From contig JAEUHK010000030.1 in assembly GCA_016795465.1 (NCBI GenBank), positions 62,001 through 126,000 of the forward strand: a stretch of DNA of 64,000 nucleotides, read 5' to 3'. Below the pieces are notes generated by a model. It saw only the letters and a list, made by a program, of their open reading frames with translations, did no database searches and was not told where the DNA came from. Below are positions 24,344-50,737 of the stretch, one piece after another (position 1 is the first letter of the stretch; each line of letters opens with the position of its first letter). A program made the position numbers and the translations under genes. Origin of the DNA: Verrucomicrobiaceae bacterium (lineage in GTDB: Bacteria > Verrucomicrobiota > Verrucomicrobiia > Verrucomicrobiales > Verrucomicrobiaceae).

Positions 24344-27300
24344 TTACAGCCCCTCGATGAAGCTGAGCAGGTCCGCCATGTCCTCGACGGTCATGCCGGT
24401 TTCGAGGCCTTCCGGCATCAGGCTCTGCCCGCTGGAGCTGCTGCCTTTGATCTCGCTGCGCTGGAGCGTCTTTTCCGCGCCGCCTGGCATCTTGAGCGTC
24501 ATGCTGCTGGCCGTGTCATTGCTGATCACGCCCGCGATGGTCTGCCCGTCCTTCGTGTTCACCGTGTAGGCGATGTACTGGGACGCCACCTCCTTGTGAG
24601 GCATCAAAATGGCCTCCAGCAGTGCCTCGCGGCCCTTCGTCTTCACTGTGATGAGGTCAGGCCCCACCGCGAAACCATTCGCACCGGCCTTGTGGCAGAT
24701 CATGCAGCGGCCCATGAACTGCAACTGGCCCTTTGTGGCATCGCCCTTGGCCGCCACCGCCGGTTTGAACTTCGCCGCCATTTCCTCGCGTGACGGCGGA
24801 ATGACCGGCGCCAGCGCCGTTTTCGCCGCCGCGGCGACTTTCGGGGACTTGTGCTTGATCAGCGCCTGCACCTGCGCCGCCGAAAACGCCTCCGGCTTCA
24901 CCACCTTCGCCTCCAGCAAGGCCACTGCCCGGTCATCCCGAGCCAAAAGTGCCTCCATAGCGACACTTTGAGCCTTCGGCCCATAATGCGGCCAGTTACC
25001 AATCAAAGCCGCCGTGACCGCTTCGGAGCTATTTTGCGCCAAAACACGAATCGCAGCCGTTTGCACCGCTTCCGGCTGTTTTTCGCCCAAACACGCGATG
25101 AGAGCTGTTTGAGCTTCTTTGGATGAACTCACGCCGAGGAGTTCGATGGCATCGAGGCGGGCTGTTTCCCGTGCCGAACGATCAGCGATAGTTCTTCGAG
25201 CTCTCACAAAGACCTCAGCCAGCTTTCCATCTTGGTCTGCTTTATCCAAAGAGGAACCAGCGAGCTTCAAACCGCGAGCGAGTGCCTTGATCAGAACTGG
25301 ATCATTTGCCGAGGCCACCTGTTCGACCAGTTTCGTGATCGAAAGGAGTCGTTCATCTTCGGGGAACCACCTGGCCGGAGCATTCAATCCAGCGGCAGCC
25401 GCTTCGACGACTTTGGCAGCCTCACCTTGTTTCAGTCCGCTGTCTTTGGAATGGACCGAGATCATCCCTGCCAAGAATACTGCCGCGTCCGGGGCACTTG
25501 CCAAAAAGGCATCCAATACCCTGCCATTGTCGTCTTTGTGGGGTTTCAGCATCCCAATCAAGCGCACACACATGTTCAATAGTTCGCCTTGAGAGTCTGG
25601 CTTTTGCTGAATGCCAGTGCTTGAGGCATGGAGCCTTTTTGTCGCCTCGAATACAACCGGAGAACTCAATGCCAATTGGTAGCGCACTCGATTTTCCTCA
25701 GAATCCGTCAAACGAGCCAACAGCATGACCATCGCAGGGGCGGGACTCGATCCCCTTCCGAGGAACTGCTCACTTTTCTGGATGCCCGCCAACTGAACAG
25801 CCACGTCTTCATTCTCGCGAAGGCAGAGTATGACAGCCTGCTGAAGATCGGCTCCCAGCCCCTCCAGCGCTCCCAGCGCATGCAGCTTTGCGAGCGCATT
25901 CTCTCCACTCAGCACATTCTCCAGCATCGGCACGGCCGTTTTGTCCTGACGCTCGAAGAGCAAACGCTGCGCGGTGTCTCGGTGCCAGCCGTTGGGATGG
26001 CTGAGGGTCTTCACAAGCTCCTCGGTGGTCGCTGCGTGGAGATTCACCGCGCGGCGGAGCTTTTTGTCGGACGAGTCGGACTTGTCTGACCTGTCGGACT
26101 GATAGGCGGCATCGAGCGTGTCCGGCACGACCCGATAGATGCGCCCCCGATCATTGCCATTGTTTAGATCGATGTGCTTCTTGATCTCGTCCGGGATGCT
26201 CCACGGATGCTCGATGACCTCGCGATACATGTCGCAGATGTGCAGGCAGCCGTCGGGGGCGTTCGCGAAGTTCACAACGCGCACCCAGGTGTCCTTCGAC
26301 GCGGCGAATTCGAAGCCGTGCTCATCGGCGGGGCGTTCGCCAATCAAGCTGATGCCGTCGGCGCTGGGTTTGATGATCTTGCGATGCACGAGCTGGCCAC
26401 CAGCATCGCCGGAGAAGCTGTTGTTCACGAAGTCAGGGCCGTAGGCATCGCCGCGATAGATCGTGGTGCCGGTGGCACCGGTGAAGTAGCCGCTGACGCG
26501 TCCGCCACCCTCGACCGCACCTTTCACGACTCCGGCGATGCGCCAACGCGTGCGGATGATGCGCCAGGGCTCGTCCGGGCTGAGGCGGAAAACTTCCGCC
26601 GCGCCGCCATCGACCGCGATGCTCTGCCGTGCGGGCGGCATCTGGTAGTAGGGATTGCGGTTCGCGTATTGGTCGTCGTAAACCCAGTATTGAAGGTGGT
26701 CGCTGTTCGAGCAGCCGAACTTGCGGCCATAGTTGTCGAAGCTCATGCCGTATTGCGCGCCGCCGCCTTCGAGTCCGAACTCGAGCGTGCGCGGATCAAA
26801 CCAGAAGTCTTTGCCACCGAGCTCCATGCCCTTCAAATCAGGCCGCTTCAGGCAGGTGATGACGCCGCGATTGCCGCCACCGGCGAGGATGTGGACCTTG
26901 TTGTCCTGCCCCCATTGAAAGCTGTTCATGAGACCCTGCACGTTGAGAATTTTCAATCCGGTGCCGAAGCCGGTGAAGACTTTCTCGCGCACCTCGGCCT
27001 TGCCGTCGCCGTCCTTGTCTTCAAAGCGCCAGATATCCGGCGTGGCACCGACAAACAAGCCGCCATTGGCCCAAATCAGCCCCGTGGGCCAAGGCAGGTC
27101 GTCAGCGAAGACCTGGCTCGTTTCAAAGTAGCCGTCGCCATCCTTGTCCTGCAGCATCGAGATGCGGCCGAGGTGCGGCGTGACATCGCGCATCTCGCTG
27201 TAGTCGATCATTTCGCACACAAACATGCGCCCGCGCTCGTCGAAGCAGATGGCGATGGGGTCACGCACCTGCGGCTCATGCGCGGCGAGCTGGAGCTTGA

Positions 27301-27499
27301 AGCCCTTTTTCACCTGCCAGGTGCCGATGGCGTCCTTCGGCTCCACGGCCGGATAGCGCGGCAAATCCTTTGCCGGATCGACGGCGACAGGATTCTTCGT
27401 CTCACCGTAGGCTTTGGCGTAGGTGGTCTTCGTCACGATTTTGTCCTGAGCAAAGAGCGAAGGGCAAAGGGCGAAGAGGAAGAGGGCGATCCGTTTCAT
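24344..27499 (-). CDS. PVC-type dehydrogenase/HEAT/cytochrome c protein 1
   Basis: The 1051-residue exported protein has a signal peptide (1-17) and a six-bladed propeller of the PVC-type membrane-bound dehydrogenase family at about 50-455 (FDERGRMFVCEMIDY, DKDGDGYFE). HEAT-like repeats span about 490-880. A C-terminal cytochrome c domain carries CMICH at 932-936 and ends with a KTLQRSEIKG and LMPEGLETGMTVEDMADLLS tail. These giant proteins are characteristic of Planctomycetes and Verrucomicrobia; the substrate is unknown and sugar oxidation is often supposed. A Ser-Asp-Lys tandem repeat (468-480) sits just after RVVP at the propeller-HEAT junction. The HEAT portion encoded by about 25.05-25.95 kb is visibly less GC-rich than the rest. 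Confidence 0.88.
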   Translation of the reverse strand: MKRIALFLFALCPSLFAQDKIVTKTTYAKAYGETKNPVAVDPAKDLPRYPAVEPKDAIGTWQVKKGFKLQLAAHEPQVRDPIAICFDERGRMFVCEMIDYSEMRDVTPHLGRISMLQDKDGDGYFETSQVFADDLPWPTGLIWANGGLFVGATPDIWRFEDKDGDGKAEVREKVFTGFGTGLKILNVQGLMNSFQWGQDNKVHILAGGGNRGVITCLKRPDLKGMELGGKDFWFDPRTLEFGLEGGGAQYGMSFDNYGRKFGCSNSDHLQYWVYDDQYANRNPYYQMPPARQSIAVDGGAAEVFRLSPDEPWRIIRTRWRIAGVVKGAVEGGGRVSGYFTGATGTTIYRGDAYGPDFVNNSFSGDAGGQLVHRKIIKPSADGISLIGERPADEHGFEFAASKDTWVRVVNFANAPDGCLHICDMYREVIEHPWSIPDEIKKHIDLNNGNDRGRIYRVVPDTLDAAYQSDRSDKSDSSDKKLRRAVNLHAATTEELVKTLSHPNGWHRDTAQRLLFERQDKTAVPMLENVLSGENALAKLHALGALEGLGADLQQAVILCLRENEDVAVQLAGIQKSEQFLGRGSSPAPAMVMLLARLTDSEENRVRYQLALSSPVVFEATKRLHASSTGIQQKPDSQGELLNMCVRLIGMLKPHKDDNGRVLDAFLASAPDAAVFLAGMISVHSKDSGLKQGEAAKVVEAAAAGLNAPARWFPEDERLLSITKLVEQVASANDPVLIKALARGLKLAGSSLDKADQDGKLAEVFVRARRTIADRSARETARLDAIELLGVSSSKEAQTALIACLGEKQPEAVQTAAIRVLAQNSSEAVTAALIGNWPHYGPKAQSVAMEALLARDDRAVALLEAKVVKPEAFSAAQVQALIKHKSPKVAAAAKTALAPVIPPSREEMAAKFKPAVAAKGDATKGQLQFMGRCMICHKAGANGFAVGPDLITVKTKGREALLEAILMPHKEVASQYIAYTVNTKDGQTIAGVISNDTASSMTLKMPGGAEKTLQRSEIKGSSSSGQSLMPEGLETGMTVEDMADLLSFIEGL
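26062..26100 (-). repeat. 9-bp tandem repeat encoding Ser-Asp-Lys (copy 1)
   Basis: On the minus strand four 9-bp units of the form NGTCMGACN run in frame and encode SDRSDKSDSSDK. The 29 bp at 26062-26090 match 39022-39050 in an unrelated gene with one mismatch, in the same orientation and frame. Confidence 0.8.
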
Positions 27500-27624
27500 G
27501 CGGAAAAGAATACGGGAGCCGTCGTGAAGCGTGAAGCACGGAAAGTGCCCGGTGGTGGTATTCTGGTGATGGAGGAAATTTCACCCTGTTCAGCACTCCG
27601 CTGCTCTGCTACCCATGCCACTGC

Positions 27625-28512
27625 ATGAAGCTCAAGCTCGACCTCGATGATTTCCGTGTGCCGGACGGCAAGCCTTTCCGCATCAAGAAGGCCAAAACCA
27701 AGGTGAAGGACCTTTACCAGGATGATGCGCACTACGAATCGCTCATCGCGGAGTTCCGGGAGGAGATCGACGAACTGCAGCAGAAGATGTATGCGCAGAA
27801 CCACCAGGGCCTGCTGCTCATCTTTCAAGCCATGGACGCGGCGGGCAAGGACAGCACGATCAAGCATGTGATGAGCGGCGTGAACACGCAGGGAGTGGAG
27901 TGCCATGCCTTCAAACGCCCGACGGATGCCGAGCTGGACCATGACTTCCTCTGGCGCACGACCCGCGTGATGCCACCACGCGGCCGCATCGGCATTTTCA
28001 ACCGAAGCTACTACGAAGAGGTGCTGGTCTGCCGCGTGCATCCGGAGATCGTCACCAAAATCCAGCGTCTGCCGGACAAGACCACCAGCAACCTCACGAA
28101 GCTCTTCGACGACCGTTTGAAGGACATCCGCAACTTCGAAGCCTACTGCCACCGCAATGGCATCCGCATCGTGAAGTTCTTCCTCCATGTCTCGAAGGAC
28201 GAGCAGAAGAAACGTTTCCTGGCCCGCATCGACACACCGAGCAAGAATTGGAAGTTCGAGGAGGCCGACGTGCGCGAGCGGGCGCACTGGAAGGACTACA
28301 TGGAGGCCTACGAGGATGCGATCCGCGTCACTGGCACGGAGGACTGCCCGTGGTATGTCGTCCCGGCCGATGACAAGAAGAACATGCGCCTCATCGTCAG
28401 CGCCGCCATTCTCGACGAGATGCAGCGGATGAAGCTCGCCTGGCCAAAGCTCCCCGCCGACAAGCTCGGCGGCCTCGCCCAATGCAAGAAGCTGCTTCTG
28501 GCGGAAAAGTGA
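27625..28512 (+). CDS. ppk2: Polyphosphate kinase 2 family protein
   Basis: The 295-residue PPK2-family enzyme transfers phosphate between polyphosphate and a nucleotide. It has Walker A DAAGKDSTIKHVMSG beginning at residue 71, a Walker B/lid region FNRSYYEEVLVCRVHPE at about 125-141 and a basic N-terminal extension. The single-domain length of about 295 residues fits the class I/III group, which mostly forms nucleoside triphosphates or diphosphates from polyphosphate. Substrate (ADP, GDP or AMP) cannot be told from the motifs. It is transcribed divergently from the PVC-type cytochrome gene and 57 bp ahead of hisA. Confidence 0.9.
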   Translation: MKLKLDLDDFRVPDGKPFRIKKAKTKVKDLYQDDAHYESLIAEFREEIDELQQKMYAQNHQGLLLIFQAMDAAGKDSTIKHVMSGVNTQGVECHAFKRPTDAELDHDFLWRTTRVMPPRGRIGIFNRSYYEEVLVCRVHPEIVTKIQRLPDKTTSNLTKLFDDRLKDIRNFEAYCHRNGIRIVKFFLHVSKDEQKKRFLARIDTPSKNWKFEEADVRERAHWKDYMEAYEDAIRVTGTEDCPWYVVPADDKKNMRLIVSAAILDEMQRMKLAWPKLPADKLGGLAQCKKLLLAEK

Positions 28513-28569
28513 GCGGTTCCACGCTTGAACAAAAGCCTGGCAGCGGTAGGACACGCGACCTCCCACCGC

Positions 28570-29340
28570 ATGACAAAGTTCCGCCCCTGCATCGATCTCC
28601 ACGACGGCCGCGTAAAGCAGATCGTCGGCTCCTCGCTGCGGGATGACGGCACCGGATTGAAGACTAACTTTGTGAGCGACCGCGATGCCGCTTGGTATGC
28701 GCAGCTCTATCAACGCGATGGCCTCACAGGTGGTCACGTCATTCTTTTGGGCAAAGGCAATGAGCAGGCCGCAAAATCGGCCGTGGGCGCCTTCCCGGGC
28801 GGCTTGCAAGTCGGCGGCGGCATTAAGCCGGAAAACGCGGCGGAGTATCTCGATGCCGGAGCCAGCCATGTGATCGTCACCAGCTACCTGTTTGATGCCG
28901 ATGGCCGTTTCGATGAAAAGCGGCTCGATGCCATCGTGAGTGCGGCAGGCCGTGAAAAGCTCGTCATCGACCTCAGTTGCAAGGCAATGCCTCAAGGCTG
29001 GACCGTGGCGATGAACCGCTGGCAGACGCTGACCACGCTCGACGTGACCGCGGAGTCACTGAAATGGCTCGCCGGACATTGCGCGGAGTTTTTGATCCAC
29101 GCCGTCGATGTCGAAGGCAAGTGTGAGGGCATCGATGAGGCGCTCGTGAGCTTCCTCGGCGAGCATTCACCCGTGCCGATGACCTACGCGGGAGGCATCC
29201 GCCATCTCGACGACCTCAAGCGCATCGATGTGCTCAGCTCCGGCCGCGTGGACGGCACTGTCGGCAGCGCTCTCGATCTCTTCGGCGGCACCGGTGCGAG
29301 ATACGACGAGCTCGTGGCTTGGAACAATCGTCCCTCATAA
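28570..29340 (+). CDS. hisA: HisA (ProFAR isomerase), eukaryotic-like type
   Basis: The 256-residue TIM-barrel enzyme should convert ProFAR to PRFAR in histidine synthesis. The sequence follows the eukaryotic HIS6 pattern and not that of typical bacterial HisA: CIDLHDGRVKQIVG near the start, GGHVILLG, LQVGGGI, then ASHVIVTSYLF, KLVIDLSCK, FLIHAVDVEGKCEGID, MTYAGGIRHLDDL and GSALDLFGG. The conserved Asp in CIDLHDG and the Asp in HAVDVEG occupy the catalytic strand positions. No other his gene is adjacent. It is followed, 1 bp after its stop, by the FAH-family gene. The ATG at 28570 is chosen because upstream codons are not family-like. Confidence 0.87.
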   Translation: MTKFRPCIDLHDGRVKQIVGSSLRDDGTGLKTNFVSDRDAAWYAQLYQRDGLTGGHVILLGKGNEQAAKSAVGAFPGGLQVGGGIKPENAAEYLDAGASHVIVTSYLFDADGRFDEKRLDAIVSAAGREKLVIDLSCKAMPQGWTVAMNRWQTLTTLDVTAESLKWLAGHCAEFLIHAVDVEGKCEGIDEALVSFLGEHSPVPMTYAGGIRHLDDLKRIDVLSSGRVDGTVGSALDLFGGTGARYDELVAWNNRPS

Positions 29341-29341
29341 C

Positions 29342-30145
29342 ATGAAGATCATCCGCTTCGCCAACCCACAGAGCCACATCGCCCACGCCGCCCAACAAGA
29401 CGACGGATCAGCCTTCATCATCGAAGGCGACATCTTCGGCGATTTTCGTGTCACCGATCAAAAAGCGGAGATCGCGAAGCTGCTCGCTCCTGTGCAGCCC
29501 TTTGCCATCATCTGCATCGGTCTGAACTACAAGTTTCACGCCGAGGAGACCAAGGCCGCGATCCCGCAGCACCCCGTCGTCTTCATGAAGCTGCCGAATG
29601 TGGTGCAGCATCCCGGGGATCCCATTCTGCTGCCCACGCACCTGAAAAGCGACAAGGTGGACTACGAATGCGAGCTGGCAGTCATCATCGGCAAGAAAGC
29701 CCGCAATGTGAGCAAGGCGGATGCCTTGAAGCATGTGCTCGGCTACACCTGCGGCAATGATGTAAGCGCCCGCGACTGGCAAAAGCACGGTGGCGGCGGC
29801 CAATGGTGCCGAGGCAAGAGCTTTGACACCTTTTGCCCTCTCGGCCCGGTGCTCGTGACCGCCGACGAGATCCCGAATCCGAACTCCCTCGCGATCAAAA
29901 CCATCCTCAATGGCCAGACGATGCAGGACTGGAACACGAACGACATGATCTTCGATGTCCCCACGCTGATCGAGTTCCTCAGCGGCAGCACCACGCTCAT
30001 GCCCGGCACCGTCATCATGACCGGCACGCCCCACGGCGTCGGCATGGCCCGCACGCCGCCTGTGTTCATGAAGCACGGCGACACCGTGAGCGTGGAGATC
30101 GAAACGATCGGCACGCTGACCAATCCCGTGCTCAATGAGGCCTGA
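29342..30145 (+). CDS. Fumarylacetoacetate hydrolase family enzyme
   Basis: The 267-residue protein has the FAH catalytic domain. AIICIGLNYKFHAEET opens the fold, DYECELAVIIG carries metal-ligand Glu residues, and YTCGNDVSARDWQ holds the conserved Asp. The motif RGKSFDTFCPLGP and, near the end, GTVIMTGTPHGVG are typical. FAH-family enzymes act as C-C hydrolases, decarboxylases or isomerases on oxo-acids, for example 2-hydroxyhepta-diene-dioate isomerase or acylpyruvase. It is one base downstream of hisA, so the two are co-transcribed, although no metabolic link is evident. Confidence 0.9.
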   Translation: MKIIRFANPQSHIAHAAQQDDGSAFIIEGDIFGDFRVTDQKAEIAKLLAPVQPFAIICIGLNYKFHAEETKAAIPQHPVVFMKLPNVVQHPGDPILLPTHLKSDKVDYECELAVIIGKKARNVSKADALKHVLGYTCGNDVSARDWQKHGGGGQWCRGKSFDTFCPLGPVLVTADEIPNPNSLAIKTILNGQTMQDWNTNDMIFDVPTLIEFLSGSTTLMPGTVIMTGTPHGVGMARTPPVFMKHGDTVSVEIETIGTLTNPVLNEA

Positions 30146-30208
30146 GCCACCTTTTCGTTACCGGCCCGTCATTGCAATCCGCTGCGTGGTTGCCATTCTC
30201 CTGCCGCC

Positions 30209-30523
30209 GTGGACCTCAAGCTCGTCAATCGTGAAATCCTGCTCTCCTTCTGGAAGGTGCATGTCCTGCATCACGCCGCCGAGGGCGAGGTGATCGGCAA
30301 TTGGATGCTCGAAGAGCTCCGGCATCACGGATACGACGTTAGCCCCGGCACGCTCTATCCGCTGCTCAAGCGCATGGAGAAAAACGGCTGGCTCACCTCC
30401 ACCGCCGATGACAAACGCGGCCCCAAAGCCCCGCGCAGCTACAAGATCACCCCGGATGGCCGGAAGGTGCTCAAAATCGCGCAGAAGCAGCTCCGCGAGC
30501 TCGGCGTCGAAGTGGGCAAGTAA
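30209..30523 (+). CDS. PadR family transcriptional regulator
   Basis: A 104-residue winged-helix protein with a GTG start. The PadR motif is complete: LEELRHHGYDVSPGTLYPLL, KRMEKNGWL and PRSYKITPDGRKVLK. PadR repressors respond to small aromatic or drug-like ligands and usually control an adjacent efflux pump or detoxifying enzyme. The RND pump begins 128 bp downstream on the same strand, so regulation of that pump is the likely job. A dyad at 30587-30603 in the spacer is a candidate site or hairpin. Confidence 0.9.
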   Translation: MDLKLVNREILLSFWKVHVLHHAAEGEVIGNWMLEELRHHGYDVSPGTLYPLLKRMEKNGWLTSTADDKRGPKAPRSYKITPDGRKVLKIAQKQLRELGVEVGK

Positions 30524-30586
30524 CGCCGGTCCGCAGACACGGCACTTTTTCCTCGTCTTCGGGGAAAGAAACTTGAATCCCCACGT

Positions 30587-30603
30587 TTTACGGCCCCCGT
30601 AAA
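30587..30603. promoter_or_regulatory. Perfect dyad TTTACGG-CCC-CCGTAAA before RND pump
   Basis: A perfect 7-bp inverted repeat with a 3-base centre lies between the PadR gene and the RND gene. It could be an operator for the PadR protein or a short transcript hairpin. PadR sites are usually of the ATGT-N8-ACAT kind, which this does not match, so the assignment is weak. Confidence 0.3.
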
Positions 30604-30651
30604 GCTTGCCGCCGTTCGTCATTCGCCATTCTGGTTTCGTCATTACCCTGC

Positions 30652-33780: not shown

Positions 33781-33793
33781 TCCTCTTCTTGCC

Positions 33794-34777: not shown

Positions 34778-34852
34778 GTTGGAGTCCAGGCTTTAGCCGA
34801 CTCTTTGAAATCTCCCATCCTTCCAAACCTCGGCTAAAGCCTAGACTCCAAC
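34778..34852. repeat. Inverted repeat, GTTGGAGTC-AGGCTTTAGCC family (intergenic copy)
   Basis: Arms at 34778-34800 and 34830-34852 are reverse complements at 22 of 23 positions around a 29-base loop. The left arm begins right after the TAA stop of the adaptor gene. The same family appears inside a coding sequence at 47142-47205. Confidence 0.85.
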
Positions 34853-34863
34853 CTCTGACTGCC

Positions 34864-36162: not shown

Positions 36163-36165
36163 TCC

Positions 36166-38175: not shown

Positions 38176-38200
38176 TGCGTCACGAAACGCGAGAACGGCC

Positions 38201-41200
38201 TCACTTTCCAGCGCCGAGTTCCTTGTAGTAGCGCTTCACGAGGTCGCGGAACTCTGCGGGCACGGGGTCGCGGTCCACTGGGGCGAGGTTTTTGCCGCTG
38301 TCCTTCTTTGAGAGCTCTTCCACCACGCGATCACGCAGCTCGATGAGCGGCGCAGTGATGCGTTGGTTCAAAAAGGACACCTGCGGGGCTTCGTTGCTGC
38401 GTTTGAGGTTCACGCGCAGCTCGCGAGCACGGTCGAGGATCTTCGCGGCCTCGTTGCGAAGCTCGGGGTTGTTGAGAAGCTCCTCCACATTGCGCAGGCG
38501 GTCGCTCCAGCGCTCGTAGCCATCGCCGGTGAAGACGCTGTTGTCGGGTTGTTCCTTGGCGTCGTCGAAGAAGAGGGAGTCAGGGAGTGCGCCGCCGATG
38601 ATTTGAGGGCGGGTGCGGTCGTTGTCGGAGTCGCGGTCGGTGGTGGGGCCGTTGGGGGTGAGGTTGGGGTTGGACGAATCTGACCGGGTTGACCTGATTG
38701 ACGGAGTTGACGGGTTGTTGGCGGTTTGAGGGGTGCCGTTTGGGTTCTTGCCGCTACCGCCTGAGTTTGAGGGTTCGGGGTTGGGGCAGTCTTCAGGGCG
38801 CTGGCTGGTGCCGGTGTTGGCGGCGGTTGGGGTCTGTCCTTTGCTTTGGCCCCCTCCGGCTTGGGTGCCGGGTTGTGGGCCGTTTTGGGCCATTTGGGGG
38901 GCTTGGCCCTGGCCTTGTTCGTTGGGCTTTTGGCCTTCGCCGGGCTTTTCTCCGGTTTGGGCGGCTTTGGGCTCTCCTTGGCCGTTTTGAGCTTCGCCGG
39001 GCTTGTTGGTGTTTTCGGCGGTTTTGTCGGACGGGTCGGACTTGTCTGACTTGTCTGACTTGTTGGACGGTTTGGAGCCTTCTTGACCCTCTTGACCGGC
39101 TGCCTGCGCTTCCGCTTCCTTGATGAGCTTATCGAGTTCGTTCTTCGCCACGCGGAGGGCTTCGCTTTCACTACCCAGAACGCTTTCAGCAGCTTTCTCG
39201 ACGCCTTTTTGCAGTTCGTCGATGGCGTTGGCGGCTTTGCGTTCGGCGTCCTTGGCTTCGGCGGCGCTGCCGTAGCGGAGTTGATCGCGGGCTTCTTGGA
39301 GATTTTCTTCGAGGCCGTTGGTCTGCGCTTTGCGGACGGCGTCGTAGAGGTTCTTGTGCAGGAGGGGCTCGCTCTGCTCGGCCTGCTCGCTGAGCTGGCG
39401 CATGTTGTTAAGGAGCTTTTCGACGTTTTCCTGCTGCTCGGCCATCTGGCGGGCCTGGCTTTGATTTTGAAGGCTCTGCGCGAGGTCGCTATCGGCGGGC
39501 TTTTGGCTTTCGAGGGACTCACTAATCTTCTTCTGCGCCTCGGCGGCTTGCTGCGCCTGCTGGCGGATCTGCTTCATCTCCTCGGCGAACTTCTTGCTCG
39601 TCTTCTGGCGGAAGTCCTCCTGCATCTGCTCGAGCTCGCGTTGAGCCCGCGTGGCGGCGTTGGTGGCATCGGTGAGCTTCTCCTGCTTCAATTGATCCAC
39701 CGCCTCGCTGACCTGCTCGCGGGTCTTTTCGAGCTGCTCCTTCGCATCGGCCATCTGCTGGGCGTTTTCGGGCTTCTCCATGCGATCCTTCAAATCATCG
39801 AGATCACGCAAGAGCTGCTCCTGCTCGGCTTGGAGGCGTTTGAGCTGGTTTTCGAGTTCCTGCTTCTCCGATTCGCTCTTGGCCTGGGCGATCTGGTTTT
39901 GCAGTTCCTTCATCTTTTCCGCGAGCGCCTCCTGGCGACGGGCAAGCTCCTTGAGGCGGTTGAGCACTTGCAGGTTCTCCTGCTGTTCGGCGGTCTGCTC
40001 CTCGCTGGCGGCCTTTTCTTCCTCGTAGCGCTGCTCTTTCTGCTTCAGCTCGAGGTCCATGACTTGGTTCTTATTCGCCTCTTGGGGCGCACCGGCCATC
40101 GGCGGGCTGTTTTGACGCATCACCTGATGCTCGCGGCTCTGCGCCCGATGCAGCCATTCGAGTGCACTCTGCTCAAAGGTGAGCGCTTGGTTCAAAGGCG
40201 AGCGCTTCTTCTCCTCCGCAGCCTGGCCGAGCGGGACGGTGGCGTCCTTCATGCTCTTCCACGCCTCGGTGAGGAACTTCTTCATCTCGGCGTCCTCGAC
40301 TTCTTCCATGGCTTCCTTCGTCTGCTCCATGGCGATGCCCTGGCTCTGCTGCACGACACCGGCATCCGGCGCGAGACTTTCCATCGGGCGACCGCCGTTC
40401 GCATCGCGAATGAGCTTCCAAGTGGCGTTCACGACCTGCTTTTGCAGTTCGATGAGCTTTTGCGCCTTCGGTTTGGGTTGGCCGGGCTCGGGCGGCGGAG
40501 CCTCGGCCTCGCGGAAGATGTCCTCAAAGTGCCGCACCTCGGCAAAGAACATGTCGCTCATGCTGCGGCGCACCTCGCCCTTCGGTCCGGTATCCTCGGC
40601 CCAGATGTAGTAGCTCACGAGCTGGCGAGGCTGAGCGCCTTCTTTTTCGAGCAACAACTCCGCACGCACGTCCTGCTTCTTCCGCGGCTCCGTGGGCGCA
40701 TGCGTGAAGGCGACCTCTTTCTCGTTGCCGTTGATGCTGAAGACCGCGCCCGATTTCACGACGCTGAGGTCGTCGGAAATTTTGGCTTCGACGGGAAGCT
40801 CCTGCAGGCTCGATACCTGGATGTCGCGCTTCGGGAAGACGACCTCGATCTTCGCGAGCTGGTTGCTCTGCACGGTGACGGTGAACCACGGCGGGTTTTT
40901 GTTCCCGCGATCCGCTTCATCGACGAGGTGCAGGCGATACTTCTGCGAGGTGGTGGCGGTCAAAACGGCTTCGAGCAGCGTGGGATCTTCGGCGGAAGGC
41001 GTGAGCGGGATGATGGTCTTGTCCTCGCCGAAGAGCTCGGCGGCGATGAGGTGGGGCTCGAAGGGGGAGGCGGTGCTGGAGTGCTGGAGAGATGGAGTGG
41101 TGGATGTTTTCGACAGAGGCGCGGCATCGAAGGGATTGCCGGTGCGGGCAGGAGTGCCCGCATCACTGGATGGGAGGAGCGGTTTGTTCACTTTGATCTT

Positions 41201-42151
41201 CCAAGCGATTTTTGAGCCTTCGAGGGCGGTGACCTTCTGCGTGTTCTTGGTCTCTTTCGCGGGGAGCTTCGTGTAGTCGGGCGGTGTGACGATGACATCG
41301 CTGCGAACGAGGGCGGGATAGTCGAAGACGGTGAGCGTATGCTCGGCGGACTTTTCTCCCGCGAATTCGACGTGGTAACGCGTGTGACGATCCGCCTTCG
41401 GGATCATGCCACCGAAGACCTGGCCATCGACGGTGAGGCGCATAGGCTGGCGGTCGCGTTCCGTGCCATCGAGATCGGTGGTGACGAGCGTGGCATCGGC
41501 CGGGACGGGGCCTGCAAAACGGGCTTCGATGATGACGCGGGAGTTCCGTTCTACTTCGGCATCGCCGGGCGTGAGGGTGGCGGTGAAGGCGGTCGATTGC
41601 TTCGCCTGCGCAGCGGGCGTTTGCTGCGTGATGCGTGATGCGTGAAGGCGGTTTTGCAGCCTCAAAGCGATGTCGGTGGCGAGGAAGGCAATCACGGCGA
41701 TCCACGCGGCGGCGAGGGCGCGGCGGTAAGGTTTGTCGGCGACGGTGACGGGCCAGTTCTGCGTGGCGGAGCGGGCGAGGGCGTGATCGATGAGGCGCTC
41801 GTGGAGGTAGCCGGCGGGTTCTTCGGCCTGCGGTTCGTGCTCAAGCGCGGTGAGCAGCAGCGAATCGAGCGAGGGATGCTTTAGCTCGATGAGCCGGGCG
41901 ATGTCGCGATCACTCCAGATGTTCCGGCGGCCTTTGAAGTAAGCGATGAAGGCCAGCACGATGATGCCGATCATCGACCAGCGGTCGAGCGTGCGGGGCA
42001 GCCGCATGCCCTGTGTCATCGCGAACAGGAAGCTGCCGCGCACGAGGATGCCGATGAGAAAGACCACGGCCATGTGCCGGAGGAGCCGCGCCTTGCGGAG
42101 GGCCTCGCGGACTTCAGTGATGCGGGCGTCGAGGATGGTGCGTGCGATCAT
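38201..42151 (-). CDS. Large DUF4175-like coiled-coil membrane protein
   Basis: The 1316-residue protein has two N-terminal helices (about 28-48 and 60-77) and a third near 148-165, then a beta-rich periplasmic region to about 560. A very long charged coiled coil (about 640-960) is rich in Gln/Glu/Lys heptads, and a low-complexity tail follows (about 980-1190, Gly/Gln/Pro/Asn/Lys). It resembles the DUF4175 family found next to DUF58 and BatA genes. The tail holds a Ser-Asp-Lys tandem repeat (39022-39072) and a degenerate version at 38676-38720. A 25-bp palindromic element (41143-41167) and a TGATGCG word cluster near 41627-41645 interrupt the N-terminal half. No stop interrupts any of them. 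Confidence 0.82.
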   Translation of the reverse strand: MIARTILDARITEVREALRKARLLRHMAVVFLIGILVRGSFLFAMTQGMRLPRTLDRWSMIGIIVLAFIAYFKGRRNIWSDRDIARLIELKHPSLDSLLLTALEHEPQAEEPAGYLHERLIDHALARSATQNWPVTVADKPYRRALAAAWIAVIAFLATDIALRLQNRLHASRITQQTPAAQAKQSTAFTATLTPGDAEVERNSRVIIEARFAGPVPADATLVTTDLDGTERDRQPMRLTVDGQVFGGMIPKADRHTRYHVEFAGEKSAEHTLTVFDYPALVRSDVIVTPPDYTKLPAKETKNTQKVTALEGSKIAWKIKVNKPLLPSSDAGTPARTGNPFDAAPLSKTSTTPSLQHSSTASPFEPHLIAAELFGEDKTIIPLTPSAEDPTLLEAVLTATTSQKYRLHLVDEADRGNKNPPWFTVTVQSNQLAKIEVVFPKRDIQVSSLQELPVEAKISDDLSVVKSGAVFSINGNEKEVAFTHAPTEPRKKQDVRAELLLEKEGAQPRQLVSYYIWAEDTGPKGEVRRSMSDMFFAEVRHFEDIFREAEAPPPEPGQPKPKAQKLIELQKQVVNATWKLIRDANGGRPMESLAPDAGVVQQSQGIAMEQTKEAMEEVEDAEMKKFLTEAWKSMKDATVPLGQAAEEKKRSPLNQALTFEQSALEWLHRAQSREHQVMRQNSPPMAGAPQEANKNQVMDLELKQKEQRYEEEKAASEEQTAEQQENLQVLNRLKELARRQEALAEKMKELQNQIAQAKSESEKQELENQLKRLQAEQEQLLRDLDDLKDRMEKPENAQQMADAKEQLEKTREQVSEAVDQLKQEKLTDATNAATRAQRELEQMQEDFRQKTSKKFAEEMKQIRQQAQQAAEAQKKISESLESQKPADSDLAQSLQNQSQARQMAEQQENVEKLLNNMRQLSEQAEQSEPLLHKNLYDAVRKAQTNGLEENLQEARDQLRYGSAAEAKDAERKAANAIDELQKGVEKAAESVLGSESEALRVAKNELDKLIKEAEAQAAGQEGQEGSKPSNKSDKSDKSDPSDKTAENTNKPGEAQNGQGEPKAAQTGEKPGEGQKPNEQGQGQAPQMAQNGPQPGTQAGGGQSKGQTPTAANTGTSQRPEDCPNPEPSNSGGSGKNPNGTPQTANNPSTPSIRSTRSDSSNPNLTPNGPTTDRDSDNDRTRPQIIGGALPDSLFFDDAKEQPDNSVFTGDGYERWSDRLRNVEELLNNPELRNEAAKILDRARELRVNLKRSNEAPQVSFLNQRITAPLIELRDRVVEELSKKDSGKNLAPVDRDPVPAEFRDLVKRYYKELGAGK
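38676..38720 (-). repeat. Degenerate 9-bp tandem repeat in DUF4175 tail
   Basis: On the minus strand five 9-bp units with a GTCA or GTCC core repeat in frame and encode STPSIRSTRSDSS. The units are diverged relatives of the repeat at 39022-39072. Confidence 0.55.
39022..39072 (-). repeat. 9-bp tandem repeat encoding Ser-Asp-Lys (copy 2)
   Basis: Five 9-bp units (mostly AGTCAGACA or AGTCCGACN on the minus strand) encode SNKSDKSDKSDPSDK in the low-complexity tail. It shares 28 of 29 bp with 26062-26090 in the PVC-type cytochrome gene. Confidence 0.8.
41143..41167 (-). repeat. 25-bp palindromic dispersed repeat, copy 2 (inside CDS)
   Basis: This is identical, in reverse complement, to 5972-5996. 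It is read in a different frame from copy 1, as SDAGTPAR in place of VMRALLPA, showing that the DNA and not the peptide is conserved. Confidence 0.85.
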
Positions 42152-42164
42152 GGCGTGGAGTGTG

Positions 42165-42794: not shown

Positions 42795-42814
42795 TACTTG
42801 GACAGTAACAGAAA

Positions 42815-44809
42815 TTATGCAGGTCGTGCGACTTGCCTTGAACGGCCAGCGAGGGCTGTTTCGAGCAAAAGCACGGCCAGGAGAGCGATCAAAAACCACC
42901 ACCACAGGTGCTGGCGCTGCTCGCTGTCCGAGGCGGTGAGGCGCTGGTCGCTCGTGCTGCTCTCGGAAGCGCTTTCAGCGGCATTCGAGAGCTTCAATCC
43001 GTATTGAGCGAGCTTTGCGGCATCGATGGGCAGGACGCGGCTTTCGTCAGGAGAGAGGTTCACGGCGAGGGTGTGGGTATGCGCGGAGGTTTGCAGCTTG
43101 AAGAGACCGGGCTGCGAGGCCGTGAACCGCTCGCCGGGCTTCAGGTTGTGCGTTTTTCCCTCGGGATCGGTGATCGTGTGCGGCTGCGCGGCATCGAGCG
43201 GCAGCTCATCGCCGACGAAAAGCGTGGCGGCGGGATCGTGGCTGAAGCCCGCGGCGGCGAGCCAGCCATACAGCAGCGGCACAAACTTCGTGCTGAGGGC
43301 CAACTGGCTGTCCGCCGGATGCCAGCCGGAGGCCAGCACGATGAGCGTGCCCTTGCCCACGCGGGCGCTGAGGATGGCGGGATGGCCGTTGTCAAAGGTG
43401 GCGAGCGTTTCGAGGCCTGCGCCCGCGATGACGCGATGCTTCCAAAAGCGCAGCTTGGTGAAATCACGCAGCTTCGGATCGGCGAAGGGTTTGAGCAGCG
43501 GATGCTCGGTCTTCACCTCGGCCAGCATGCGGTAGTCGTCGCTGGTTTCCGGCGTGATCGTGAGGTCGAAACCGAGCGCTTTGAGCAAGGCGGCATCGCT
43601 GGGTGCGACAACGAGGAATCCGCCGCGCTGAAGGTGATCGCGCAAACCCTCGGCAGACGCGTTGCCGACCGCGAACACGATGTCAGGAGCCTGCGCGGGG
43701 AGCTTTTCATCCGCGGTGAGTTGCGGCGCGAGTGTAGCGGTGGGCTGCAAGGCACGGGCGAGGTAGTAAAGCGGCGCGGAGGCCTCATCGCGGCTGGCTT
43801 CTTTGCCGAGGAAATGAATTCGAACGGCCCGCGGCTGCGGTGGCGTGATGAAGACGCGGTTGTCAAAGTCGTGCTTGTCGCCGCTGAGCGTGAGCGTGGT
43901 GGTGTTCGTGCTGTTCGGCGGAGCCGGAAGGATGCGCGAGGCCCCCGGCGGGAGCTGCGCGGTGATGGCATCGGCTTTCGCGCCGCCTTCCCAAGCGAGC
44001 GTGAAGTCACGCAGCGCGGAGTCGCGAGTGTTCGAGAGGCGCAGGCGGGTGGAAAGGCTCGATTCTCGGAGAGAATCGGCCACTTCACTGGCGGCGAGGG
44101 CGAGGGAGAGGTTGTCGTTCACCGCCGCGTCGATGCGATGAAGCTGCAAAGTGATCTCCGCCGGCCAGGCGATGGTGCGCAGGGCATCGAGCTTCGCGCC
44201 TTCTTGAAGGTCGGAGATCAGATGGATGCGTTTTTGCAGCGTGGAGGTGCTCGAATCAAAACTCGGCACCGCGGCGATGAGAGCGCGATCGAGGTGCGTG
44301 GGTGCCCAAGTGGGCGAAAGAGCCTCCAAACGGCTTTTGAAGGTCGTGAGACGGTTCGCGGGGCTTTGGCGGTCTTCGTCAAAGGTCCACAGCGGCGTGA
44401 GCTCGCGATCAAACACCGCGAACGCGATGCGATCGGTGATCTTTGCCTCGCGCACGAGCTTTTCCGCTTCGGCCACAGCCTTCTTCCAAATATCCTCGCG
44501 GCGCATCGAGGCACTGCGGTCGATCAGGATGAGCGAGGCGCGGCTCGCGGAGGCGGTCACGGATTGCTCCGAAGGCCAAAACGGCCTCGAGAACATCAAG
44601 GCGAGCAAAATGAGGGCGAGGCAGCGCAGCAGGAGCAGCAGCCAGTTTTCGAGGCGACGCTTCGAGACGGGCATCGGCGTCTGCGCATCCAGGAAGAGCA
44701 GCGAACTGAACTCCACGCGGTCCTGCGGTGGACGCCGACGCAGGTGCAGCAGGATCGGCGCGAGGATCGCGGCCGCACCGGCGAGATAGAGGGGAAAGAG
44801 CCAGCTCAT
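42815..44809 (-). CDS. BatA-like VWA membrane protein
   Basis: The 664-residue protein begins with the aerotolerance-type N-terminal region (FPLYLAGAAAILAPILLHLR, then RRPPQDRVEFSSLLFL). A second helix lies at about 56-77, followed by a VWA domain with an intact MIDAS-type DRSASM near residue 97. A long periplasmic region and a final helix (about 637-655) complete it. It combines features of BatA/BatB-like proteins. These act with MoxR and DUF58 proteins in envelope stress or aerotolerance, a role known from Bacteroides and disputed elsewhere. Its start overlaps the DUF58 stop by 4 bp, so the two are translated together. Confidence 0.87.
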   Translation of the reverse strand: MSWLFPLYLAGAAAILAPILLHLRRRPPQDRVEFSSLLFLDAQTPMPVSKRRLENWLLLLLRCLALILLALMFSRPFWPSEQSVTASASRASLILIDRSASMRREDIWKKAVAEAEKLVREAKITDRIAFAVFDRELTPLWTFDEDRQSPANRLTTFKSRLEALSPTWAPTHLDRALIAAVPSFDSSTSTLQKRIHLISDLQEGAKLDALRTIAWPAEITLQLHRIDAAVNDNLSLALAASEVADSLRESSLSTRLRLSNTRDSALRDFTLAWEGGAKADAITAQLPPGASRILPAPPNSTNTTTLTLSGDKHDFDNRVFITPPQPRAVRIHFLGKEASRDEASAPLYYLARALQPTATLAPQLTADEKLPAQAPDIVFAVGNASAEGLRDHLQRGGFLVVAPSDAALLKALGFDLTITPETSDDYRMLAEVKTEHPLLKPFADPKLRDFTKLRFWKHRVIAGAGLETLATFDNGHPAILSARVGKGTLIVLASGWHPADSQLALSTKFVPLLYGWLAAAGFSHDPAATLFVGDELPLDAAQPHTITDPEGKTHNLKPGERFTASQPGLFKLQTSAHTHTLAVNLSPDESRVLPIDAAKLAQYGLKLSNAAESASESSTSDQRLTASDSEQRQHLWWWFLIALLAVLLLETALAGRSRQVARPA

Positions 44810-45768
44810 GCGGCGGCGCGTTTGGAGGTTTTCTTGCGTTGGCGGGCGCTGAGGAAATCGAAGAGCACTTCTTCCAGCGGACGGTCCGTGGGGCAGAAGT
44901 GGTATTCGACGTTGTTGCGGTCACAGGCGGCCTGGATGGCATCGCGATGGGCGCGAAGCCGCGTGAGGTAGGTCTCGCGGGCGATTTGCGGATCGATGAA
45001 GCGCTCCGTGCCGCTTTCGAGATCGCGGAAGTGCGCGGACTTCTCGAAGGTAAAGTCGATCTCCGCCCGATCCATGAGGTGAAAGAGCACGAGGTCATGC
45101 CCCATCGCCCCGAGCAGGGCGAGTTGCTTCTCCAGATGCTCGACAGGGGCGAGCAAATCGGTGATGAGGCAGATCATGCCGCGCTTCCGCAGCACCTCTG
45201 CGAGCTGACCGACCGAGAGATCGAGCGAGGTGCCGGCCGCTTTCGCGGGCCTCTCCAGCTCGGTGAGCAGCCGCCGCAGATGCCCGGGGCGATTCCGCGC
45301 GGGCAGATGCTCCTCGATGCCATCGGCAAACGTGGTCAATCCAGCCGCATCGCCCTGCTTCATCAGAAATGAGGCCATCGTCGCGGCGAGCGTGGCGGCA
45401 TACTCTGCCTTCGTGAAGCCCTGCGAGCCGAATTTCATCGACTTGCTGTGATCGATCACGAGCTGGCAGCGCAGGTTCGTCTCGTCCTCGAACTTCTTGA
45501 TGTAGGTGCGGTCACTGCGAGCGAGCACCTTCCAGTCGATGTAGCGCGGATCATCGCCCTGCACGTAGGCGCGATACTCGCTGAACTCGACCGAGAAGCC
45601 GTGATACGGGCTGCGGTGCATCCCTTTCCAAAGCCCCTCGACGACCACCTTGGCCCGCAGCTCGAGCGATTTGATGCGCATGAGCGCCGCCGGATCGAGA
45701 AACGAGGCGGCCGGAGGGCGGGAGGATGACGCGGAAAGGCTCACAAAAGACAATGACCGCCTCCACAA
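44806..45768 (-). CDS. DUF58 protein, second MoxR-associated cluster
   Basis: The 320-residue protein is a soluble DUF58 protein with no membrane helix. The core is DDPRYIDWKVLARSDRTYIK at about 93-112, followed by a VWA-like domain with an intact DHSKSM motif (MIDAS DxSxS) near 127-132. This contrasts with the DUF58 at 8508, whose motif is degenerate and which has membrane helices. The start is uncertain: ATG at 45768 adds about 29 weakly conserved residues, and MRIKSLELRAK at 45681 is the alternative. It heads a cluster running DUF58, BatA-like, unknown, DUF4175, FHA. Confidence 0.87.
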   Translation of the reverse strand: MWRRSLSFVSLSASSSRPPAASFLDPAALMRIKSLELRAKVVVEGLWKGMHRSPYHGFSVEFSEYRAYVQGDDPRYIDWKVLARSDRTYIKKFEDETNLRCQLVIDHSKSMKFGSQGFTKAEYAATLAATMASFLMKQGDAAGLTTFADGIEEHLPARNRPGHLRRLLTELERPAKAAGTSLDLSVGQLAEVLRKRGMICLITDLLAPVEHLEKQLALLGAMGHDLVLFHLMDRAEIDFTFEKSAHFRDLESGTERFIDPQIARETYLTRLRAHRDAIQAACDRNNVEYHFCPTDRPLEEVLFDFLSARQRKKTSKRAAA

Positions 45769-45835
45769 CGCCCGCCAAGGGGGACTTTGTCGGAGAATCG
45801 CGATGCGTGGCGATTCAGCGCCACGAGAACGCCCC

Positions 45836-45895
45836 GTAGCATAGCCTTTCTAGGCTGTGCTTTTTGAGGAGCACCGGCTAGAAAGCCGATGCTAC
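45836..45895. repeat. Inverted repeat, GTAGCAT-CTTTCTAG family
   Basis: Arms at 45836-45861 and 45870-45895 are reverse complements at 22 of 26 positions around an 8-base loop. The right arm covers most of the TAG stop codon (45892-45894) of the cytochrome gene, read on the minus strand. Confidence 0.8.
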
Positions 45896-48800
45896 TTCCC
45901 CAGCAAGAACGCCAGCAGATCACTCATCTGCTCCTTCGTGATGGCGGCCTCCAGACCATCCGGCATCAGGGTGCGATCCAGGCTCTTCATGTCTTTGATC
46001 GCGGTGCGGGAGAGCGTCTCTTTCGCGCCGCCGGGCATGGCGAGGACGATGGCGTCGGTGGTTTCGCTTTGGATGAGGCCGGCGAGGGTGCGGCCGTCTT
46101 TGGTTTCGATCTGGTAGCCACTCCAGCGGGCTTCGAACATGCGGTTGGGATCCAAAATATCGCTGAGGAGGGCTTCGGGGGGCTTGACCTTCACGTCGGA
46201 GAGCGGCGGGCCGACATCGACGCCGAGCTGACCGTGCTTGTGGCAGGTGATGCAGATGGTGGCGAAGAGTTGCTGGCCTTTTTTGGCGTCGCCGGGCTTT
46301 TTGGCGGCGTCGAGGTAGCTGGTGACGACTTTGGCGCGGTCGCTGTTGGCCTCGCCGAAGAGCTTTTTGGCGAGTTCGGCCATTTCGCCTTTGCCGCGCT
46401 GGTAAGCCCAGCGTTTTTCGACATCGACCCACGCGGGCGGGAACTCGCCTTTGTCCATGCGCTTGAAGAGTTCGAGCGCGGTGGTGGCGTTGGCGGTGAG
46501 GATGGTCACGAGGTCGCGTTTGAGGCCGGGGCCGGCTTTGGGCAGGAGTTCGTAAATGAGCGGCGAGGTACTGGTGGAGCTGAATTTCTTCAACAGGGCC
46601 ACGGTGGCCGCGGTGAGCTCCAGCGGCTGCGTGGTGGTGAGCAGGTTTTTCACCACGGGCTCGACGGCGGCCCATTTGCGCGAAGCAAGCAGCGGCAGCA
46701 CGGCGAGGCGTTGATCGAGCGGTGCTTTGGCATCGGCGATGATGGTGTCGATCTTCGTTTGAAGTGCGGCGATCTCCTTGGCGGCGTCTTCGTGGCCTTT
46801 CGGGAGCTTGGCGAGACCTTGGAGAAGGGCGGGTTTCCACCAGAGGAGTTCGCCGGGTTGTTTTTGGAGAAGCGTGAGCAGTGACTTGATGTCGTCGGCA
46901 TCGCCATCGGCGAGTGAACCGGCGGCGAAGGTGCGGATGGTGTCGCTCTTGGTGGCGGAGAAGCGGCTGAAGAAGGCATCGCCGAGCTGGCTGAGGATGT
47001 GGCCCATGTTCTTCGCGGAGACGCTGGCGACCATTTTGGCCATCCACGGGTCTTCGCCGTGTTTCGTGAGGATGGCGGCGAGTTCGGCGGTGTCGGTGAT
47101 GGTGGGGATTTTGAGGAAGAGGGCGCGTTCGGGGTGCTCGGGTTGGAGTGTAGCCTTTAGGCGATCTGGGCCTTTCCCTGAATCGGCTAAAGCCTTGACT
47201 CCAACATACCCTTTGGGAACGACACGCCAGATACGCCCATGGTTTTCGCCCTGGCGCATGTCGTGGGTTTTGACGAACTCCTCGGGGAAGAAGCGAGCGT
47301 GGTCGATCCAGCGGCGGTAGATGTCGCAGATGTAGATCGCGCCGTCGGGGCCGGTGGTGAAGTTCACGGGGCGGCTCCATTCGTCGCTGCTGCGGAAGAA
47401 CTCCGTGCGGTCGCCGACACGCGTGGCTTTGAGCGAGGCACCGTTGGGCTCGATTTTGTAGCGGGTGACGAGCTGGCCGGTGGGATCGGGCACGAAGACG
47501 TTGTTTTTGAGTTCGGGCATCAAGTGACCGCGATAGACGCCGAGGCCGCTGCAGGCGGTGTTCGTGCCGGCGTGGGCATCGGCGGTGGTGTGGGTGATTT
47601 GCAGCGGATAGACGCGGGTCTCCGCTCCGGGCGTGGCGATGTCTTCATGCACCTGCGTGATGCCGGCGTGCGGATTCCGCAGCATGGCCTCGTAAGGCAT
47701 GACGGTGAACATGAGCGGGTTGCGGTTCGAGCAATAGAAGTGGTGGCCGTAGTCGTCGAACGCACCGCCGTATTGGCCGCGACCGCCGGTGGGGGTGATC
47801 TCGCCGGTCTTGGGGTTCCATTTGAAGTTCGAGCCGGGAATGCCGACGACCTTCGTGGGGGCATCGGCGGGATAGATTTCCTTCGCATCAAGGCCGTTGT
47901 TAAAATGCACGCAGCCATCTGGACCCCAACGCGGAGCGCTGACCTGGAGCTGGCTGTGCTTCGGATTGAAGCCGCGGATGAGCGGCTTGATGAGGTCGGC
48001 CTTGTTGTCGCCGTCGGTGTCTTTGAGGAAGAGAATCTGGCTGCGCGTGGTGGCGATGAGGCCGCCGTCGTAAGGCAGCAGACCTTGGACGTTGTCCATG
48101 TGGTCGGCAAAGGTCACCGCCTTGTCCATGCGGCCGTCGCCGTTCTCGTCGGTGAGGAGTTGGATGCGGGAAAGCCAGGGATCGCCGGGATTCGGCGGGC
48201 CGAGCGGGTAGTCGCGCATGTCGGCGACGAACATGCGGCCTTTGTCATCCCAGGTGGCCTCGACGGGATCGAGCACGAGCGGCTCGGCGGCGACGAGTTG
48301 CACCTCATACGGGCCGTCGAGCTGGATGCGCTTCTGGCTTTCCTCGGGCGAAAGGGCCTCGCTTTGACCATCGCGCACCGCGCCGATGTCGCTGCCGCCG
48401 CTGGCCTGGATGGCGGACCATTTCTCTTTGAACTCGCCGAGCGGATACAGCTCGTAGCGACGCACGATCATCTCCGCGCCCTCGGTCTGCAGGAGGATTT
48501 TGCCTTCGCTCGGTTTGCAATCGAAGGCCTCATTCACCATCGCGCCATTGACGAAGTATTGCAGCGTGTCGCCCTTGGCGATGACTTCGAGGCGGTTCCA
48601 CTCGCCGCTGGGGCTTTCGACATCGTTTTTGCCGCGGAAGCCCACCGTGTCGCTCCAGTCCTCATCGCGGCCTTTCCAATTGATGCGGCCTTTGGTCACC
48701 GTCTGACGCGGGGAGCCTGCTTTCCAGATTTTTTCCTTGTCGCGGTCGAGCGCGAACTCCGCAGAGAGCGAAGTCGTGAGCTCCGTGCCGTCCGCGAGCT

Positions 48801-49230
48801 TCGGCGAGAGCACCAAGATGTCGCCCACGCCACCCTCGATGATCTGCGCCTCGATGCTGGCCATCCAGGTGTCGCTGTAGGCACCGTGCGGGCCGTAGGC
48901 GTGGAGGAGGATGCCGTTGTCCTTCGCTTTCTTTTCGCGGGCACCCCAGGTCTTTGTTCCCCATTTAAATTCGAGGACGAGGTGGTAGTCGCGGTAGTTT
49001 TCCTTCGTCGCCACATAGCCGTAGCCGCGGCCGGAGATGTTGAAGGTGCCATCCGCGGCGAATTTCCAGATGTCCTTCGGATCATCGTGGAAATCCATCT
49101 TCGGATTCACGTGATGCTCGACGTTGCCCGATTTGATGACTTCGAGCAGATCGATCTTTTTCGTCACCGGCTGGGCGGAGGCGAAAACAGGCAGGAGCAG
49201 GGAAAGAGCGAGGAAACGCATGGCGAGCAT
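45892..49230 (-). CDS. DUF1080 + PVC-type dehydrogenase/HEAT/cytochrome c protein 2
   Basis: The 1112-residue exported protein has a signal peptide (an internal ATG at 49221 gives a tighter one). A DUF1080-like jelly roll occupies about 30-275, a PVC-type propeller about 290-670 ([20 protein letters not shown]), and HEAT-like helices about 700-920. A cytochrome c domain carries CITCHKHG with heme-binding Cys993, Cys996 and His997. The C-terminal [11 protein letters not shown] and [20 protein letters not shown] closely match the protein at 24344. A repeat element encodes residues about 676-697, just after RVVP. The DUF1080 domain suggests a carbohydrate target coupled to electron transfer. Confidence 0.88.
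47142..47205 (-). repeat. GTTGGAGTC-AGGCTTTAGCC family element inside a CDS
   Basis: Arms at 47142-47164 and 47183-47205 are inverted repeats of the same family as the intergenic element at 34778-34852. It is read through in frame as part of the linker between propeller and HEAT domains. Confidence 0.8.
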
Positions 49231-50612: not shown

Positions 50613-50624
50613 CGTTCAAGCGTG

Positions 50625-50692
50625 GGAGTGCTGGAGTAGTGGAGTGTTGGAGTGCTGAAACTGAACCCAATACTCCACTACTCCAACACTCC
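50625..50692. repeat. Inverted repeat, GGAGTG-TGGAGTAG family
   Basis: Arms at 50625-50650 and 50667-50692 are reverse complements at 24 of 26 positions around a 16-base loop. It lies downstream of the sucC terminator in the 303-bp gap before the oxidase operon; the rest of that gap holds only the dyad at 50738-50766. Confidence 0.8.
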
Positions 50693-50737
50693 ATTTCCCC
50701 AGCCGCCCCTCGCTGATCTTGTCCGCATCACGCCAAT

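Follow-up and report, generated by a model that had tools for sequence, protein, structure and literature searches.

Two PVC-type cytochrome genes, P0001 and P0002, lie in a stretch of 64,000 nucleotides (hereafter the window) within contig C21 of the draft genome G000 (6.76 Mb; completeness 95.4, contamination 7.5). Each carries a different DNA repeat, read in frame, in the linker that follows its propeller, and the question raised by this locus is why different repeats should occupy one and the same place. The likely answer, in our judgement, is that in these Prosthecobacter-like genomes the linker between the propeller and the HEAT part of PVC-type cytochromes often holds dispersed in-frame repeats, the copies of which arrive untargeted (the hairpin pairs being predicted to be moved by transposases) and survive because the linker tolerates almost any open peptide. 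Protein searches returned Prosthecobacter sp. and Verrucomicrobiaceae bacteria as the named close relatives and, judging by these proteins, the source bacterium is probably a relative of Prosthecobacter. The two genes and their linker repeats, one of which resembles a doublet of repetitive extragenic palindromic (REP) sequences, are as follows.

24344–27499, minus strand: P0001, PVC-type cytochrome of 1051 aa (TIGR02604, 387.1 bits; TIGR02603, 143.8 bits; PF23500, HEAT_2)
26064–26100, minus strand: 9-bp tandem array GTCSGACNN in the P0001 linker, read as SDRSDKSDSSDK (pattern search)
45892–49230, minus strand: P0002, PVC-type cytochrome of 1112 aa (TIGR02604, 345.1 bits; TIGR02603, 137.1 bits; PF06439, PF23500)
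47142–47205, minus strand: family-A hairpin pair, REP-doublet-like, 64 bp with a 21-residue reading, in the P0002 linker (inverted-repeat search, folding)

Two cytochromes with different linker repeats

Both proteins score above the curated cut-offs of TIGR02604 (122.2 bits) and TIGR02603 (68.15 bits) and are therefore ordinary members of the PVC-type cytochromes. P0001 consists of the propeller, the linker with the 9-bp array, the HEAT part and a CxxCH domain, while in P0002 an N-terminal PF06439 domain is followed by the propeller, the linker with the hairpin pair and a C-terminal CxxCH domain. The TIGR02604 match covers residues 66–460 in P0001 and 308–674 in P0002 and ends in both at the RVVP motif. 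These matches bear out the original prediction of two paralogous PVC-type cytochromes, each with a propeller, an RVVP segment and a repeat. The repeats had been placed right after RVVP, which is correct as to the site but not as to direct contact, since eight residues (DTLDAAYQ) in P0001 and three (KGY) in P0002 intervene.

The two-unit pattern of the 9-bp repeat (one mismatch) was matched five times in the window, compared with a mean of 0.04 in shuffled sequences. The inverted repeat at 47142–47205 has arms of 24 nt, 20 of them paired, and a loop of 16 nt; its folding gave a z-score of -4.7, and none of 200 shuffles was equally good. A chance inverted repeat at this position was ruled out by the inverted-repeat search of the window together with the shuffled folding. 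Throughout G000 the 9-bp pattern was found at 94 places, compared with 2 for the reversed control, and the family-A hairpin arm gave 20+20 matches as against 2+3 in the controls. Copies of families A and B and of the 9-bp array are scattered over the genome, and the linkers of P0001 and P0002 do carry different repeat families, as had been claimed.

The linker among paralogues and orthologues

Among the genes of G000 with a TIGR02604 match, 38 linkers were readable; L113, which has no linker motif, and L091, L104, L114 and L115, which are gene fragments or have no propeller end, were left out of the count. A linker was scored as repeat-bearing if its inverted-repeat score was at least 11 or if 19 or more of 21 positions agreed with the 9-bp pattern, and 120-nt windows from the same genes served as controls. 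Repeats are enriched at the linker, being present in 8 of 38 linkers and in 16 of 949 control windows (Fisher p=1e-6). One of the 16 control positives is the linker array of L112, taken in by the window grid, and several are further doublets elsewhere in the same genes, such as that of L080 just before the heme domain. The control positives also include two different inverted repeats at one loop of the propeller, between GRARP and PWEFEVF, in the paralogues L085 and L086. Hairpin pairs account for five of the eight repeat-bearing linkers and belong to four families (P0002 has A, L080 and L085 have B, L082 has C and L086 has D); the other three, P0001, L111 and L112, hold 9-bp arrays, that of L112 also reaching the hairpin score. 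The remaining 30 linkers have no repeat.

Linkers could be compared with the sister genome G016 for 29 of the 38, which were paired with loci showing 89–100% identity across 110 or more upstream residues; three G016 loci were each paired with two G000 genes. Even where the propeller side is almost unchanged between orthologues, the linker repeat may be a different one or absent. P0001 has its array in G000 and none in G016, and P0002 has the family-A pair in G000 and a decayed family-F doublet in G016, with 98% identity in the 200 residues upstream in both cases; L082 has a family-C repeat in G000 and none in G016, again with 98% identity upstream. In L080 the same family-B doublet is present in both genomes (98.5% identity upstream), so a repeat copy can be passed on by descent. 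The counterpart of both L085 and L086 is a single G016 gene, the linker of which reaches the hairpin score with unrelated sequence. Neither genome has a repeat in 23 of the 29 pairs, and several repeat-free linkers are wholly different between the two genomes (for example, L083, L087 and L097).

In comparisons of G000 with G016 the propeller is nearly identical, while the linker and the part beyond it are often strongly different, and this divergence beyond the propeller is possibly the result of module exchange. Applied to the repeats themselves, whole-module homologous recombination between strains or paralogues would make the linker a breakpoint and the repeats its passengers or crossing-over sites. 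Several G016 pairs that share the propeller and differ past it are consistent with such exchange, as are 20 relatives whose N-terminal parts are 92–100% identical to that of P0002 and whose parts past the linker are 75–100% identical, and the intermixing of long and short forms on the tree described below. The same repeat families are found, however, in intergenic DNA and in unrelated genes, and the paralogues within G000 hold different families, which makes this a very improbable explanation.

P0002 was aligned with the 119 best relatives listed, most of which are 82–97% identical to it. The least conserved 20-residue stretch is that between RIWRVVP and EHPERALF, where the mean identity to P0002 is 0.18 compared with 0.87 overall. 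Ten linker types were labelled, and 33 type changes are needed on a tree of the 120 proteins built without the linker columns; on the same tree the repeat versus non-repeat state changes 17 times, a count in which types I and J, labelled like K and R from peptides only, were scored as repeats. Both the type changes and the excess over control windows agree with the linker being a favoured location, as had been suggested. The predicted length variation is present but modest in this group, with linkers of 19–32 residues in 110 of the 120 proteins.

At the DNA level 37 of 42 loci of P0002 orthologues were parsed, and the hairpin threshold was reached at 11 of the 37; one of these, L171, is probably a chance match, and L150, L151 and L158 have the appearance of decayed doublets. 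Directly after RVVP, L278 has a doublet whose ends are exactly GTAG...CTAC; at this place L268–L270 have KG(A/K)KAPK(I/V)EAAP. In the corresponding alignment of P0001 the full-length array was present in 7 of 120 proteins, P0001 included, and a shorter form in two, while the linkers of the other proteins are mostly KGAERIGQKVNLADAS-like or GWQRAKGEERRGNIAGAS-like. Ordinary conserved protein sequence at the linker is ruled out, as orthologues differ there: even distant ones, had the original prediction been wrong, should have shared these residues, but unrelated residues were found, and the same repeat occurs in only some relatives.

Repeats outside the linker and their reading frame

Further elements of these families in the window are listed below.

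34778–34852, no strand assigned: intergenic family-A hairpin pair (inverted-repeat search)
39024–39068, minus strand: third 9-bp array, in frame, read as NKSDKSDKSDPSDK, in the unrelated gene 38201–42151 (pattern search)
41143–41167, minus strand: single family-C unit, in frame (DAGTPAR), in the gene 38201–42151; the same 25 bases occur inverted at 5972–5996

Other kinds of repeat, a ATGACGAATG-type inverted repeat and GGAGTGNTG-type 8-bp arrays, were seen in the window at 11991–12114, 50617–50714 and 41070–41104.

The location of the repeats relative to genes was followed in an 861-kb sample of G000, made up of six contig stretches and the window (558 called genes, 87% coding). Eight of the 10 family-A elements and four of the five family-B elements in this sample are intergenic; both coding family-A elements are located in PVC cytochromes. 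PVC and PSCyt2 genes account for 7.1% of the coding DNA, yet they contain 9 of the 15 in-gene doublets (p=1.5e-7) and 6 of the 8 coding arrays among the 10 arrays of the 9-bp family (p=3e-6); without the window their share is 8 of 14 and 5 of 6, respectively. Among the matches listed from the 94 genomic places of the 9-bp pattern, 10 of 31 arrays fall inside PSCyt2 domains, which occupy 35.7 kb of the 6.76 Mb (p=7e-16). In addition, 21 of about two dozen family-A and -B clusters were classed as genic or intergenic by codon score and position of open reading frames, and 8 of them are genic. Six of these 8 are in TIGR02604 genes and two in the sulfatases L022 and L025 (contig C131), where the family-A pairs occupy the same place, the C-terminal edge of the PF00884 match. 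A single PSCyt2-PSD1 gene, L266, combines an array with doublets of families C and E.

Another doublet family (GTAGAACGAGTTTTCCAACTCGTT...) was noticed at C32:176929, C55:52659, C55:56681 and C64:138867, after residues of the SEAY/SETY/SAAY type. Its site is apparently the same in all four genes, each of which bears PSCyt2, and in the one gene checked this site falls within the PSD1 (DUF1553) part; the doublet may have been inherited there from one ancestor.

Recurrence at one position might mean that the elements have a true insertion target, with something in the conserved RI-W/Y-RVVP coding sequence, or in its surroundings, attracting them. Repeats of four or more hairpin families, as well as the 9-bp array, begin 0–9 residues from this motif, and in PSCyt2 paralogues one loop, that after LTGLPP, repeatedly holds a 9-bp array (9 of the 22 loops parsed from 38 examined among 60 places; for example, L244, L253, L256, L262, L264 and L266). 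The distance to the motif differs between elements, however, no target is common to the families, and elements are also present at other positions of these genes and between genes. Targeting is therefore unlikely in our view. Tolerance of the site is preferred over both targeting and a need for the repeat mainly because linkers without repeats also diverge entirely. Of the two alternatives offered by the original prediction, a hotspot or a safe site, the safe site agrees better with the data than the hotspot, considering this divergence and the repeats accepted by other loops and gene families.

The reading frame of in-gene copies is nearly constant. The 9-bp arrays read Ser-Asp-x in 13 of 14 cases, the exception being the PSCyt2 gene L257, where another frame is used, and all nine in-gene copies of families A and B keep one frame per family. 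Such constancy fits selection against harmful peptides or stops. It could also be taken to mean that selection maintains the encoded peptides for some role of theirs, for example as a spacer between the dehydrogenase and heme parts or through an mRNA hairpin that slows translation between the domains, and both the hydrophilic peptide encoded by the arrays and the retention of the L080 family-B pair in G016 are compatible with this. A constant frame is equally expected, however, if just one open frame is tolerated; moreover, most G000 linkers have no repeat, and orthologues swap or lack theirs at 98% upstream identity. We consider a function of this kind doubtful at best, and tolerance by the linker remains the preferred reading.

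Doublets, RAYT genes and known systems

An arm of families A, B, D, F and G consists of a tag (GTAG, GGAG or GTGG) and, at once or a few bases on, a small palindrome like CCGGCTTTAGCCGG. The tag is GTAG in families B and F and in the L278 element, GGAG in A and D, and GTGG in G; family C is without a GTAG-like tag. Two arms face each other in inverted orientation across a variable spacer, which is the arrangement of REP doublets or REPINs (REP doublets forming hairpins), and the pairs are ~53–75 bp long. REP elements are associated with REP-associated tyrosine transposases (RAYTs), and Y1_Tnp gave 12 matches in G000, 8 of them above the cut-off. One of the proteins, L229, is a RAYT according to NF047646 (86.1 bits; cut-off 80); a GTAG-tagged F-like doublet ends 5 bp before its ATG, one unit lies inside the 3' end of the gene and one beyond it. 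L231, which has a doublet upstream, scores below the same cut-off (61.8 bits), and a family-D doublet is found 10 bp downstream of the RAYT-like frame L234, which has a low score (36.7 bits) and is possibly damaged.

We infer that RAYTs moved the copies that now sit in genes. Doublets would be copied around the genome, probably by these enzymes, and the 9-bp arrays would spread as well. In-gene copies would survive where the frame stays open and the extra residues do little harm, and purifying selection would remove those that break a frame or a fold, so that linkers and loops are left as safe sites.

Several observations weigh against this reading. No RAYT was found adjoining the family-A or -B copies in G000. 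Six of the 7 family-C elements in the sample lie in coding DNA and 1 is intergenic, contrary to classical REPs. Dispersal of family G amounts to one copy outside the linker: its exact-arm pattern, too strict for copy counting, was found in 2 of 48 genomes at 3 places, two of which are the linker of P0002 orthologues (the equally strict pattern of family F was found in 13 of 48 genomes). Changes on the tree may include allele exchange between strains besides new insertions, and in the P0002 group the repeat replaces another linker sequence, a clean insertion into a present gene not being seen there. In the P0001 alignment linker identity is 0.31 compared with 0.71 overall, and lower stretches occur near residues 613–643. 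Finally, the structure models are too poor to support flexibility of the linker: the mean predicted local distance difference test (pLDDT) values were 48.5 and 61.5, and nothing was concluded from them because pLDDT is below 50 not only in the P0002 linker but also across most of the P0002 propeller.

In-frame palindromic repeats have been described before. REP doublets, bacterial interspersed mosaic elements (BIMEs) and REPINs occur with RAYTs, as several families per genome with related units around the RAYT gene (Di Nocera et al. 2013, PMC3733652), and the elements described here resemble them in the tag and small palindrome, the facing units, the several families and, for the F-like units, the flanked RAYT gene. 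The same paper reports intragenic REP dimers coding for 20–30 residues, most of them among the GTAG REPs of the verrucomicrobium O. terrae, and different REPs at about the same site in recB of two Xanthomonas species. The present case differs in that one linker of paralogues is shared by several families and an unrelated 9-bp array, with swaps among close orthologues, and in that the hosts are PVC and PSCyt2 cytochromes, whereas the intragenic REPs reported there are mainly in DNA repair genes. Rickettsia palindromic elements (RPEs), given as 100–150 bp (PMC3767692, PMC2229807), are likewise found in frame inside protein genes; near one site, Rickettsia orthologues may have RPE-4, RPE-6, RPE-7 (cases of 84–192 bp) or no element at all, and insertion hotspots are among the possibilities weighed by the authors. 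The pairs described here are set apart from RPEs by their length and recur at the linker of a paralogous family. Their host proteins are, by their domain matches, ordinary PVC-type cytochromes (TIGR02604/TIGR02603) and PSCyt2/PSD1 proteins, families treated in PMC5615132.

No report on DNA repeats in the linkers or loops of PVC or PSCyt2 cytochromes was found in the open-access literature searched. The remark in the original prediction that no description was known was nevertheless too strong, given the published in-frame palindromic repeats, including different ones near one site, in Rickettsia and Xanthomonas (PMC3767692, PMC3733652). What is new here is that several repeat families have been exchanged, time and again, at the same linker within a family of paralogues, in-frame REPs and RPEs being already known.

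A broader proposal, which we put forward tentatively and with less than even confidence, is that a single linker serves as the shared landing pad of several unrelated mobile repeat families, which have replaced each other dozens of times in close relatives, so that this part of the protein is written by mobile DNA and not by point mutation, and that the same process operates in loops of at least two other large families, the PSCyt2/PSD1 cytochromes and the sulfatases. For annotation, peptides such as SDKSDKSD, VVPASAG...AGTT and DAGTPAR...GKSARIT are to be read as translated DNA repeats and not as conserved protein motifs. The linkers and loops would provide a natural, often repeated record of protein sites that accept random insertions of about 15–25 residues, and mobile DNA would be a means by which linkers and loops rapidly acquire new sequence beyond Rickettsia.

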